NCBI GenBank assembly: GCA_016778045.1
Contig: JADHQG010000011.1
Span: forward strand, 1-38,766
Source: Luminiphilus sp.
Lineage (GTDB): Bacteria > Pseudomonadota > Gammaproteobacteria > Pseudomonadales > Halieaceae
Direction of reading: 5' to 3'
Length of the DNA stretch: 38,766 nucleotides
The position numbers were made by a program, and so were the translations under genes. Below are positions 22,671 to 27,895 of the stretch, in pieces. A model generated the notes under the pieces. The model worked only from the letters and a program-made list of their open reading frames with translations, searched no databases and was not told where the DNA came from. Every line of letters starts with the position of its first letter. The stretch's first letter is position 1.

Positions 22671-23144
22671 ATGCACTGCCCCTTTTGCAGTACCGACGAA
22701 ACCAAGGTCATTGACTCTCGCTTGGTGGCAGAGGGTGCGCAGGTTCGCAGGCGTCGAGAGTGTCTGAGTTGCACTGAGCGGTTCACCACTTATGAAGCTG
22801 CCGAGTTGGTGTTGCCACGCATCATCAAACAGGACGGCAGTCGAGAACCCTTCGATGAAGAGAAGCTCCGCGCCGGGTTACTGCGTGCTTTAGAGAAGCG
22901 CCCGGTGTCGGTGGAGAGCATCGAGGCCGAGATCGATCAGCTGAAACATCGTTTACGCGCCACGGGAGAGCGAGAAATCAAGTCGCTGCAGGTGGGCGAG
23001 CGAGTGATGGAATCCCTCAAGGCGCTCGATCACGTGGCATATGTGCGTTTCGCATCGGTGTATCGCAGTTTTCAGGACCTCGCTGAATTCCGGGATGCCA
23101 TTGAGTCACTTGAGGCTGAGCCGACTCAGGGCGAATCAACGTGA
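22671..23144 (+). CDS. nrdR: Transcriptional repressor NrdR
   Basis: '[42 protein letters not shown]' zinc ribbon plus ATP-cone. Confidence 0.97.
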
Positions 23145-24253
23145 GCGATGCGCAGGATCGCGCCTTTATGGATTGTGCGATCGAGGCGGGCCGTCAGGCT
23201 CGCTACTGGTCGGCACCTAATCCGCCCGTGGGCTGTGTCTTGGTGCGCGATGGTCAAATCTTGGGGTCGGGATATACCCAGCCGGATGGCGACGCGCACG
23301 CCGAGATCATGGCATTACGCGCTATCGAGCGGGCGAACAGTGCCACGGCCTATGTCACATTGGAGCCATGTAGCCATGAGGGTCGAACCGGACCCTGCGT
23401 CTCGGCACTGATTGAGGCGGGCATCAGTCGGGCCGTCATCGCGGTAGAGGATCCCAACCCGGAGGTTTCGGGCCGAGGGATCGCCGCGCTGAGAGAGGCG
23501 GGTATTCAGGTCGATGTGGGCATTGGAGCCGAGCAGGTCGCGGAGGATCTTGCTGGTTTTCTCCTGCGAATGCGTCGTGGCCACGGTCGCATTACTTTGA
23601 AAATTGCCGCTTCGCTAGATGGTCGCACCGCCATGGCCTCAGGAGAGAGCCAGTGGATAACGGGTGAACTGGCCCGGCAGGATGTGCAGCGACTCCGTGC
23701 AGAATCGGATCTGATTGTCACCGGCATTGGCACCGTCTTGGCCGACGACTGCCGACTGACCCTGCGTGGCGAGGCGTTGCCGCTGGACACTGAGGCCAAA
23801 GCGCGTGCCTTGGCTTACCCCCCGGCGCGGATGGTGCTGGACTCCCAAGCGCGTATACCGTCAGACGCCCGAGTCTTGCAGGGCGCCACGACGACCGTCG
23901 TCACCACTCAACCCTCGAGCCTGAGTGACAGGGTGCGCGTATGCCGGCTGCCTGCAGATGAGGCAGGGCGAGTGGATTTTGCAGCTTGGATCTCGTTGCT
24001 GGGCGAAGAGCGCTACAACGAGATTTTGGTTGAGGCCGGTCCAACCCTGTCAGGCGCTCTGGTACAAGCGGGCTGGGTAGATCGGCTCATCATTTATCAG
24101 GCGCCGACGTTATTGGGCGACGGCGCACGCGGCATGACGGGTCTGATGTTGGATCAGTTGTCAGACGCGATATCACTTCACTTCAAAGAAGTGACCCGCC
24201 TTGGGCCGGATCTGCGTATTATTGCGACCCCGACAAGCCGCAGGGCTGTGTAA
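23141..24253 (+). CDS. ribD: Bifunctional diaminohydroxyphosphoribosylaminopyrimidine deaminase / 5-amino-6-(5-phosphoribosylamino)uracil reductase
   Basis: 'NPPVGCVLV', 'HAEIMAL', '[14 protein letters not shown]', '[22 protein letters not shown]'. Confidence 0.95.
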
Positions 24254-24288: not shown

Positions 24289-24897
24289 GTGTTCACAGGA
24301 ATTATTCAGGCCGTTGGCCGTATCGCAGAGATTGACGCTGGCGAGCAGGACATCCGGTTGCGTATCGAGACCGGCAAGCTACCGCTGGCCGATGTGGCCC
24401 TGGGCGACAGTATTGCGACCAGCGGCGTGTGTCTGACCGTGACCGAATTGCCCGGTGACGGATTCTGGGCAGACGTGTCTCCCGAGACGCTCTCGCTGAC
24501 CTCGTTAGGCAGCAAGGGGGTGGGCGATGCGGTCAATCTCGAGACGTCTCTTACCCTGAGCACCCCACTTGGTGGCCATTTGGTGAGCGGCCACGTCGAC
24601 GGTGTGGGGTATATCGAGCAAATCATGGAGGATGCACGATTCTGGCGGGTCAAAGTGGCCGCGCCCGACAATCTCGCACGTTATATCGCCATGAAAGGTA
24701 GCATCTGTGTGGATGGCACCAGTCTGACGGTGAATCAGGTTGACGGATCTGCGTTTGAGCTCACCATCATCCCCCAGACATGGGAGGAGACCGTATTTAG
24801 CGAGTACGTTGCAGGTAGCCCCGTCAATCTCGAGGTCGATGTGATCGCTCGCTACCTCGAACGGCTTATGCAGTTCGACAATTCAGAGAGCGGGTGA
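24289..24897 (+). CDS. ribE: Riboflavin synthase (alpha subunit)
   Basis: 'MFTGIIQAVGRI', 'GDSIATSGVCLTV', 'GGHLVSGHVDGVG', 'DGTSLTVN'. Confidence 0.95.
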   Translation: MFTGIIQAVGRIAEIDAGEQDIRLRIETGKLPLADVALGDSIATSGVCLTVTELPGDGFWADVSPETLSLTSLGSKGVGDAVNLETSLTLSTPLGGHLVSGHVDGVGYIEQIMEDARFWRVKVAAPDNLARYIAMKGSICVDGTSLTVNQVDGSAFELTIIPQTWEETVFSEYVAGSPVNLEVDVIARYLERLMQFDNSESG

Positions 24898-24903
24898 ATC
24901 GCC

Positions 24904-26028
24904 GTGAGCGATAGCGCCAACATCGATAAGGTCCTCAGCGAACTCCGCCACGGGAACAGCTGTTTAATGCTGAATGAAAACAGCGCAGGCGGCATGACCG
25001 GTTTTGTTGTGGCGGCGGCTGAACATTGCGCGGCTGACCATATTGCCTTTATGGCCCGTCAGGCACGGGGGCTGGTGTGTCTGGCGCTCACGCCGCAACG
25101 CTGTGCTGAGCTCGAGCTGCCGCTGATGGTGGAGGGCGATGATTCGCTGTCACCTTTTACCCTGTCAATAGAGGCCGCGACGGAGATTGATACCGGCATC
25201 TCTGCGGCGGATCGGGCGCGGACGGTTCAGGTGGCGGTCGATACCGCCAGCCAGCCCGCAGATCTGGTCCAGCCAGGTCATATTTTTCCCATCGCTGCCG
25301 CTACGGGGGGCGTGCTGACTCGCACGGCGCCAGCAGAGGCAGCGATTGACCTCACTACACTCGCGGGTTTGCTCCCCGCGGCCGTTTTCACTGAAGTGCT
25401 GGATGCTGAGGGCGCGGTTGCCGGTGCGGACTATCTCATCGCTTTTGCCGAGCGGCATCAGCTGGTGGTCGGTCAGGTATCGGATTTGGTGACCTATCGG
25501 TTGGCGAATCAGAAAACCATTCAGGCAGTGCGCAAAGGGGTGCTGGATAGTCGCCACGGGAGCTTCGAGGTCACCGCCTATCAAGATGCGACACAGGGTC
25601 GGGTTCATTTGGCGCTCAAAAAGGGAGAGATCAAAGCGGACTCGCCAACACTGGTGCGCGTGCATGTCACAGCGGTGTTTCGTGATTTAGTGGGCACTAC
25701 GCTTGATGGTCACGCGTCATGGTCTTTCGATGAGAGCCTGAGTGCGATCTCTGAGGCGGAGGCAGGGGTATTGGTGCTGTTGAGCAAGCCTGAGACAGCC
25801 GAAGATCTGCTACACGGTATCGACCGACTTTTGGGTGAACCGGAACCCGATTCGATGGCCAGCCCAGATGCCTACAACCAGATCGGCATGGGCGCCCAGA
25901 TATTGCGTGACCTCGGTGTTGGGCAGATTCGCTTGATGGGTGCTCCCCTCAAGTACAATGCCCTGGCGGGGTTCGGCTTGGAGGTGATCGATTTTGTTGC
26001 ACCGCCCGATACCTCTGAATCTCATTGA
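24904..26028 (+). CDS. RibBA/RibBX-type protein with degenerate active sites in both domains
   Basis: RibB-like fold sequence ('DTGISAADRARTVQVAV', 'DLVQPGHIFPIAAATGGVLTR') but no DRENEGD loop and no GGHTE; RibA-like C-terminus ('NQIGMGAQILRDLGVGQIRLMG') lacks the zinc-binding cysteines. Confidence 0.85.
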   Translation: MSDSANIDKVLSELRHGNSCLMLNENSAGGMTGFVVAAAEHCAADHIAFMARQARGLVCLALTPQRCAELELPLMVEGDDSLSPFTLSIEAATEIDTGISAADRARTVQVAVDTASQPADLVQPGHIFPIAAATGGVLTRTAPAEAAIDLTTLAGLLPAAVFTEVLDAEGAVAGADYLIAFAERHQLVVGQVSDLVTYRLANQKTIQAVRKGVLDSRHGSFEVTAYQDATQGRVHLALKKGEIKADSPTLVRVHVTAVFRDLVGTTLDGHASWSFDESLSAISEAEAGVLVLLSKPETAEDLLHGIDRLLGEPEPDSMASPDAYNQIGMGAQILRDLGVGQIRLMGAPLKYNALAGFGLEVIDFVAPPDTSESH

Positions 26029-26040
26029 AGGGTGAGCAGC

Positions 26041-26523
26041 ATGTCAGGTAAGGGAATCGACAATTCTCCGGCGCAGGTACCAGCCAATGATGGTGGATAC
26101 GTCATTGTCTTGACCCGTTGGAATGACGACATCGTTAGCGGGCTGCTTAAAGGCGCACTGCGGGCACTTGCTGATACTGGCATCCCCTCCGAAAACGTGC
26201 GGGTCGAGAGGGTCCCAGGCGCTTTTGAGATCCCGCTGGCCTGTCAGGCTGCAACAGAACGAGTTGACTGTGATGCGGTGATCGCTTTGGGTGCGGTTAT
26301 CCGCGGTGGAACACCCCATTTCGAATACGTGGCGGGGGAGTGCACTCGCGGTATCGGTGAGGTGGCGCTGCGGAGCGGCAAGCCCGTTGCCTTCGGTGTG
26401 CTCACGGTGGACACGCTGGCGCAGGCTCAGGAGCGCTCAGCCGACAACGATGAAAACAAGGGTGCCGAGGCGGCCATGAGTGCGGTGGAAATGGTCAACC
26501 TGCTGCGGGATCTGAGAGACTGA
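26041..26523 (+). CDS. ribH: 6,7-dimethyl-8-ribityllumazine synthase
   Basis: '[15 protein letters not shown]', '[28 protein letters not shown]', '[19 protein letters not shown]'. Confidence 0.95.
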
Positions 26524-26969
26524 TGTCTGAGCACAATCCTTTGGCCGCTCAGCGACGCAAAGCCAGACACTATGGCTTGCAAGCGTTGTATCAGTGGACC
26601 CTGTCGGGTGCCAGCCCTTCCGACATTGAGGCAGAATTCAGAGTCGACAACGACTTTCAACATACCGACGGTGAATACTTTAACGCCTTGTTATGCGGCG
26701 TGATCGCCGATGTCGAGGCGCTGGAGTTGGTATTCGAGCCGGCGCTCGACCGGGGGCTTGATGACCTTGACCCCATCGAGCGAAACCTGCTGCGCTTGGG
26801 AACCTTTGAGCTGAGGGACCGCATCGACGTACCGTATAAAGTGGTGATCAGTGAAGCAGTGGCGCTGGCTAAAAAATTTGGTGCGACGGATTCTCATCGC
26901 TACATTAACGGTGTACTCGACAAGATATCTCGAGAGCTGCGCACCGTGGAGCGTGCGCAAGACAGTTAA
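26523..26969 (+). CDS. nusB: Transcription antitermination factor NusB
   Basis: 'RRKARHYGLQALYQWTLSG', 'LDPIERNLLRLGTFELRDRIDVPYKVVISEAVALAKKFGATDSHRYINGVLDKI'. Confidence 0.96.
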   Translation: MSEHNPLAAQRRKARHYGLQALYQWTLSGASPSDIEAEFRVDNDFQHTDGEYFNALLCGVIADVEALELVFEPALDRGLDDLDPIERNLLRLGTFELRDRIDVPYKVVISEAVALAKKFGATDSHRYINGVLDKISRELRTVERAQDS

Positions 26970-27895
26970 TGGCGAACGGTGAGTTCTCGCTGATTCAGCA
27001 ATACTTCGTGGGGCTGGGCGAGGGCCCATTCGTTGAGCGAGGGGTTGGCGACGACGCCGCCACGCTCAGGGTCCCTGCAGGGCACGTGTTGCACGTATCG
27101 ACCGATACCGCGCTGGTCGATGTGCACTTTCCATCTGATTTGCCAGCCGCCGATATGGCTTATCGAAGCGTGATGGCCGCCGCCAGTGATCTCGCGGCAA
27201 TGGGCGCGCAACCCATGGCACTGCTACTGTCTCTGACCCTACCTGCGGTCGAAAAGGACTGGCTGCAACAGTTTACAGCGGGCTTGAAAGCCGCTTGCCG
27301 CGAGACCGGATTACCGTTAGCAGGTGGTGATACCACCCGGGGTGCTTTGTCGCTGACTGTCACGGTGTTGGGGTCCACGCCAGAGTCACAGTTCTTGACG
27401 CGGGGGGGCGCGAAGCCCGGCGATCGACTGTGCGTGAGTGGCACCCTGGGTGATGCAGCGGCGGGGCTTTCGATCTTGAAAGGCGAGGTCTCGATGAGGT
27501 GCCCCGATGCGGAACAGGCCCTGCGGGACCGTTTTGCACGACCCACGGCCCGATTAACACTGGGGCAAGCACTCAGAGGCATTGCCTCTGCGGCCATCGA
27601 TATTTCAGACGGACTGCTGGCAGATGCTGGCCACCTCGCGACGGCAAGCGATATCGGCATCGAAATAGACAGTGCGCAGATCCCACTCTCGGATGCCTTA
27701 CGATCGCTCGATGACACCGAGCAAGCCTTGCGTTGGGCTTTGGCGGGAGGCGATGACTATGAGCTGTTATTCTGCCTGTCGCCTTTGGCAGCCTTGCCGG
27801 CGGGATGTACCGAGATTGGTCGTGTTGTCGCCGGAAGCGGGATAAGCTGTGACGTGATGCCAGAGCAGCTCGGATATGATCACTTTACCCACTGA
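26969..27895 (+). CDS. thiL: Thiamine-monophosphate kinase
   Basis: 'GVGDDAATLRVPAGHVLHVSTDTALVDVHF', 'LAGGDTTRG', 'AIDISDGLLADAGHL', 'GGDDYELLF'. Confidence 0.95.
   Translation: MANGEFSLIQQYFVGLGEGPFVERGVGDDAATLRVPAGHVLHVSTDTALVDVHFPSDLPAADMAYRSVMAAASDLAAMGAQPMALLLSLTLPAVEKDWLQQFTAGLKAACRETGLPLAGGDTTRGALSLTVTVLGSTPESQFLTRGGAKPGDRLCVSGTLGDAAAGLSILKGEVSMRCPDAEQALRDRFARPTARLTLGQALRGIASAAIDISDGLLADAGHLATASDIGIEIDSAQIPLSDALRSLDDTEQALRWALAGGDDYELLFCLSPLAALPAGCTEIGRVVAGSGISCDVMPEQLGYDHFTH

Follow-up and report, generated by a model that had tools for sequence, protein, structure and literature searches.

The gene between ribE and ribH in the 38,766-nucleotide stretch of Luminiphilus DNA analyzed here (the window) probably encodes, judging from its residues, a non-catalytic protein that would act as one subunit of a heterodimeric DHBP synthase and complete the active site of its partner. 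DHBP synthase is normally a homodimer with two active sites, each made of loops 1 to 3 in cis and of loops 4 and 5 of the partner subunit. In the Halieaceae, we found two RibBX copies with reciprocal losses of residues, purifying selection and conserved synteny. On balance, this pattern favors the view that the DHBP synthase of the Halieaceae and of a sister family has become an obligate heterodimer by reciprocal cis/trans degeneration of two RibBX paralogues, which would make it a counterpart, in a bacterial vitamin pathway, of the trypanosome prozyme systems. A heteromeric DHBP synthase was not described anywhere in the literature searched; subscription papers fell outside the scope of that search.

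The window gene is an uninterrupted open reading frame with a GTG start (Table 1). The first-pass annotation had described it as a RibBX-type gene with altered catalytic motifs, intact between ribE and ribH, and sequence, profiles and synteny bear this out. In profile searches, the protein matched PF00926 (DHBP synthase) with 185.7 bits, against a cut-off of 26.4, and PF00925 (GCHII) with 112.9 bits, both matches spanning the profile length. Its score for the TIGR00506 ribB equivalog (165.8) was below the cut-off of 177.45, and its top relative of solved structure was 6mnz (E = 1e-85). The gene order is nrdR-ribD-ribE-X-ribH-nusB-thiL-pgpA, where X is the window gene. An AlphaFold2 model of the protein, built from a shallow alignment of 16 sequences, reached a pLDDT of only 49, with most of the B half below 50. 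Because of this, no structural claim is based on the model.

Table 1. Window gene, its neighbors and its active-site regions (positions in the window).
Feature	Position	Strand	Remarks
nrdR	22671..23144	+	Upstream member of the conserved cluster
ribD	23141..24253	+	
ribE (riboflavin synthase)	24289..24897	+	5' neighbor of the window gene
Operonic RibBX paralogue (operonic copy)	24904..26028	+	374 aa; DHBP-synthase-like half, residues 9-198; RibX/GCHII-like half, residues 213-365
Former acidic loop 1	24973..25005	+	Residues 24-34, NENSAGGMTGF replacing DDEDRENEGD; cis metal/substrate loop lost
Loop-4 region, trans-acting lid	25177..25212	+	Residues 92-103 (...TGISAAD); Thr97 (= T108 of V. cholerae) and Asp103 (= D114) kept
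Loop-5 region, trans-acting	25264..25284	+	Residues 121-127, LVQPGHI; His126 invariant
Former G-H-T, now A-P-A	25327..25335	+	Residues 142-144; Luminiphilus has lost the phosphate-site Thr and the metal-ligand His (H153 in E. coli, H154 in V. cholerae)
Loop-3 region	25393..25425	+	Residues 164-174; Glu164 kept, Asp169/Met172 positions drifted
RibX (GCHII-like) domain	25540..25998	+	Zinc cysteines absent; tail QIGMGAQILRDLGV conserved
ribH (lumazine synthase)	26032..26523	+	3' neighbor of the window gene
nusB	26523..26969	+	
thiL	26969..27895	+	

In the DHBP-synthase-like half, the acidic loop DDEDRENEGD reads LNENSAGGMTG and has no metal-ligand glutamate, and RAGHTEAG has become RTAPAEAA. Both changes had been pointed out before and are confirmed; at the second site (APAE), histidine, the metal ligand of GHTE, is replaced by proline and threonine by alanine, but the glutamate is nevertheless retained. 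The reading of TEV in place of CEL as a further catalytic loss was wrong, since the glutamate is kept there too: Glu164 corresponds in position to E174, which is essential in E. coli RibB, and functional relatives of the same order read VEIMN at this site. The trans-acting loops 4 and 5 carry the TGxSAxD and PGH motifs, reading TGISAAD and QPGHI. By its sequence, the window protein would not have the functional RibB half of a RibBX, the cis catalytic residues being gone. The other half is devoid of the hallmarks of GTP cyclohydrolase II (three zinc cysteines and GSxRCDCG), so that the protein has the RibBX architecture, in which RibB is joined to a GCHII-like domain lacking zinc cysteines. The absence of these cysteines, reported in the first-pass annotation, is real; it is the ordinary state of RibBX proteins and nothing special to this one. 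Hence, the suggestion that both halves look non-catalytic holds at the level of sequence, although a dead GCHII half is normal for RibBX.

Indeed, the RibBX proteins of Shewanella oneidensis, Aeromonas salmonicida and Bradyrhizobium resemble the window protein in domain architecture, in their place in the operon and in a GCHII half without zinc or catalytic residues. That of A. salmonicida has RibB activity, as it complements E. coli ribB, and no RibA activity (PMC10012899). Known RibBX proteins keep RibB activity, whereas the RibB half of the window protein is without cis catalytic residues. Similarly, the bifunctional RibBA is a homologous two-domain protein, but the window protein has no complete site of its own in either half. 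A search of its own genome (G000), a draft that is 67.8% complete, found a separate RibA-like gene with zinc cysteines, HSSCLTGDVLGSKRCECG, on contig C38 and, as the sole PF00926 gene, the operonic copy. The C38 RibA (L002 949-2022) has an atypical N-terminal part and scores above the NF001591 cut-off and below that of TIGR00505.

The operonic copy is a maintained gene. Among close Luminiphilus pairs, its dN/dS was about 0.045, compared to 0.051 for RibE, 0.077 for RibH and 0.142 for RibD, which indicates strong purifying selection, and the changed loop 1 itself gave a pN of 0 and a pS of 0.38. None of the 39 Luminiphilus copies examined contained an internal stop or frameshift (one was cut by a contig end), and all those with their flanks present sit between ribE and ribH. 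With 39 copies at the same position, the altered gene is therefore not due to chance. Outside Luminiphilus, which represents the extreme, operonic copies are eroded only in part, with for example DDDADSHNEGV in loop 1, GHTE kept and E174 changed to aspartate. Since E40 and GHTE are retained in these other Halieaceae, residual cis activity is possible there. Such stepwise erosion, from the other Halieaceae to Luminiphilus, is what functionless redundancy in slow decay would produce. However, the low dN/dS and the same operon position in all Luminiphilus relatives exclude decay, and the loop-4 threonine and aspartate are kept in 100% of the copies; this explanation, to which we give almost no credence, is already refuted in practice by purifying selection.

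The constraint on the new loop, in which S27, G29 and T32 are invariant in Luminiphilus, could also mean that the rebuilt site, where a Ser/Gly/Thr-rich loop replaces the acidic one, has acquired a new function in catalysis or ligand binding. We consider this very improbable: the loop differs widely among genera (DDDADSHNEGV, HDDDQRLGG, LDQSDGEQTG), with no common new motif, and a new function would make the conservation of loops 4 and 5 needless.

We scanned the whole family for PF00926 genes (116 Halieaceae genomes, 27 genera) and found two in about 100 genomes, one in 15 and none in one. The second copy scores 263 to 285 bits, harbors DDEDRENEGD and GHTE and lies outside the rib operon; the operonic copy scores lower. 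Two PF00926 genes were also present in 5 of the 6 genomes searched from family f11 of the same order (loops such as HDDDQRLGG and DDDDERLGG), while a single copy is the usual state in the remaining families of the order and class, with intact loops in the sampled genes. Maximum-likelihood analysis placed the eroded operonic genes of the Halieaceae and f11 in a single clade (100/99) and grouped their second copies together (99/91), beside the non-operonic single copies of other families. Seven genomes apparently have no operonic copy, and in all of them the cause is a gap in the assembly or a truncated gene: five are without any ribH, the only RibH-like gene of G118 is a distant one, and in G080 a contig end next to ribH truncates the gene. 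Eight genomes showed the operonic copy only (G135, G000, G003, G011, G014, G107, G115, and G120). In G135, which is 100% complete by marker genes and is the one of the eight whose flanks were inspected, both flanks of the expected second copy stop at contig ends, and an assembly gap explains its absence. An Rfam search matched no FMN riboswitch at the operonic or the second-copy locus, and the idea of a riboswitch-controlled second copy was therefore dropped. In one Halieaceae genome, the stretch upstream of nrdR (L089 1766-1900) matched the RNA family TwoAYGGAY, with a score of 43.3 for a gathering score of 43.

In the V. cholerae DHBP synthase, the active site consists of loops 1 (residues 34-41), 2 (82-98) and 3 (175-185) in cis and of loops 4 (103'-111') and 5 (132'-138') from the other monomer (PMC5228156). 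T108' and D114' govern metal entry as well as the loop-4 lid, T108 is termed strictly conserved, and an M. jannaschii D114S-type mutant has lowered activity; the role of the two residues is supported largely by simulation and one cited mutant (PMC5228156). Our cis/trans split is taken from this single account of one enzyme, and the mapping is our own, V. cholerae TTGVSAAD (107-114) being placed on window residues 96-103 and loop 5 being located by a constant offset.

The losses of the two copies fall in opposite parts of this site. All 68 operonic copies carry the loop-4 threonine and aspartate and have lost cis loop residues. Conversely, the 57 second copies keep all cis residues, and the two loop-4 positions read Pro/Gln in 50 of them, Pro/Gly in 6 and Ala/Gln in 1. 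Outside genes (n = 73) combine cis and trans parts in one protein, with Thr97 in 73/73 and Asp103 in 72/73 (the last one has Glu); this set includes 19 low-scoring additions, and its genomes are essentially single-copy, but a second PF00926 match occurs in two of the sampled class genomes, G516 and G561. In each of the 32 tabulated genomes with both copies, the operonic copy had T/D and the second copy had P/Q or P/G with E-E-D and H-T intact, but because the reciprocal pattern arose essentially once in the phylogeny, such genome counts are not independent and measure consistency only.

An unbiased scan of conserved columns in the B half gave the same picture: second copies have lost G94, T97 and D103 only, and Luminiphilus operonic copies have lost 13 residues. 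Of the conserved trans columns, 3/9 are lost in second copies and 0/9 in operonic copies, whereas cis losses amount to 0/15 in second copies but to 10/15, 7/15 and 7/15 in the operonic copies of Luminiphilus, other Halieaceae and f11, respectively (Fisher p = 0.002 for the Luminiphilus operonic copies). A stricter scan against single-copy genes yielded 4 lost columns in second copies (E90, G94, T97, and D103, with E90, T97 and D103 lost in 57/57) and 18 in operonic copies, mainly in loops 1 to 3 and the G-H-T site, with an overlap of 0. A degenerate DNA pattern representing the altered (P/Q) loop 4 matched in 19/19 other sampled Halieaceae. Among about 740 genomes, it had two further matches, neither at RibB as far as checked: that in G514 is far from the RibB gene, and that in G300 translates unlike RibB. 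A mirror-tree comparison of the two copies gave a weak signal (r = 0.88; partial, 0.45, versus 0.52 for RibD).

We infer from these losses that the two proteins pair, that the pair is active and that the homodimers are not. The second copy would supply the cis chemistry (DDEDRENEGD, GHTE, and loop 3) and the operonic copy loops 4 and 5, so that pairing would create one complete composite site and one dead site collecting every degenerate residue, while either homodimer would be dead or impaired. Because the losses are opposite, all damage would be confined to one of the two heterodimer sites. Relaxed selection on that site of an obligate heterodimer would explain both sets of losses, the constraint elsewhere in both proteins and their co-retention.

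The operonic protein might instead be a regulatory or scaffold pseudoenzyme, acting on RibE/RibH or the whole pathway, next to a second RibBX that is a self-sufficient DHBP synthase tolerating its rebuilt loop 4. We regard this as unlikely, even though the second copy, which keeps all cis catalytic residues, could work alone, the position between ribE and ribH is conserved wherever flanks are present, and a modulating effect of RibX domains on the RibB domain to which they are fused has been reported (PMC10012899). Indeed, a scaffold gives no account of why T108 and D114 are lost in second copies only where an eroded operonic copy exists (they are kept in 73/73 and 72/73 outside genes), nor of why the operonic copy keeps exactly these two residues. 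The loss in the second copy of precisely the trans-acting loop-4 residues thus points to a heterodimer subunit rather than to the RibE/RibH scaffold or flavin partner envisaged in the first-pass annotation, of which the non-catalytic partner role survives in outline, in agreement with purifying selection.

By analogy, the closest functional counterparts of the proposed heterodimer are the trypanosomatid deoxyhypusine synthase, a complex of an impaired and a dead subunit (PMC3663545), and the AdoMetDC prozyme (PMC5201418). In these systems, impaired and dead paralogues are both retained and their complex is the active enzyme; at the sequence level, the Halieaceae likewise retain a dead paralogue beside an impaired active one. 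However, the trypanosomatid systems concern other enzymes of another fold in eukaryotes, whereas the Halieaceae pair has opposite-site losses in both subunits and its complex is predicted only. In Arabidopsis, RIBA2 and RIBA3 are RibBA paralogues that lost one activity through exchange of essential residues (PMC3509567). Unlike the Halieaceae copies, which drop complementary parts of one site, these isoforms each drop an entire activity, GCHII or DHBPS (PMC3509567). If true, the heterodimer would be a clean natural example, from an essential bacterial pathway, of the passage from homodimer to obligate heterodimer through complementary loss, with the ancestral single-copy and intermediate stages still visible among living families. 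It would allow the division of labor between cis and trans residues to be tested directly in DHBP synthase, which has been proposed as an antibacterial target, and would serve as a warning for annotation that neither ribBA-like gene need be a functional RibB alone.

A few genomes depart from these copy numbers. Twelve complete genomes of genus g8 (family f8; 3.1 to 4.1 Mb), G031 among them, gave no RibBX-profile match at 1e-60, and G031 had no PF00926 match whatsoever. DHBP synthase is possibly lacking in these 12; other g8 genomes carry one. In the complete genome G552 (C1:2236999-2237573), the DHBP synthase appears as two partial PF00926 matches, which could represent a frameshift or a pseudogene. 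Finally, the Luminiphilus genome G102 has three PF00926 matches on contigs C53 and C61, two of them of the second type (L110 and L111), suggesting contamination or a further duplication.
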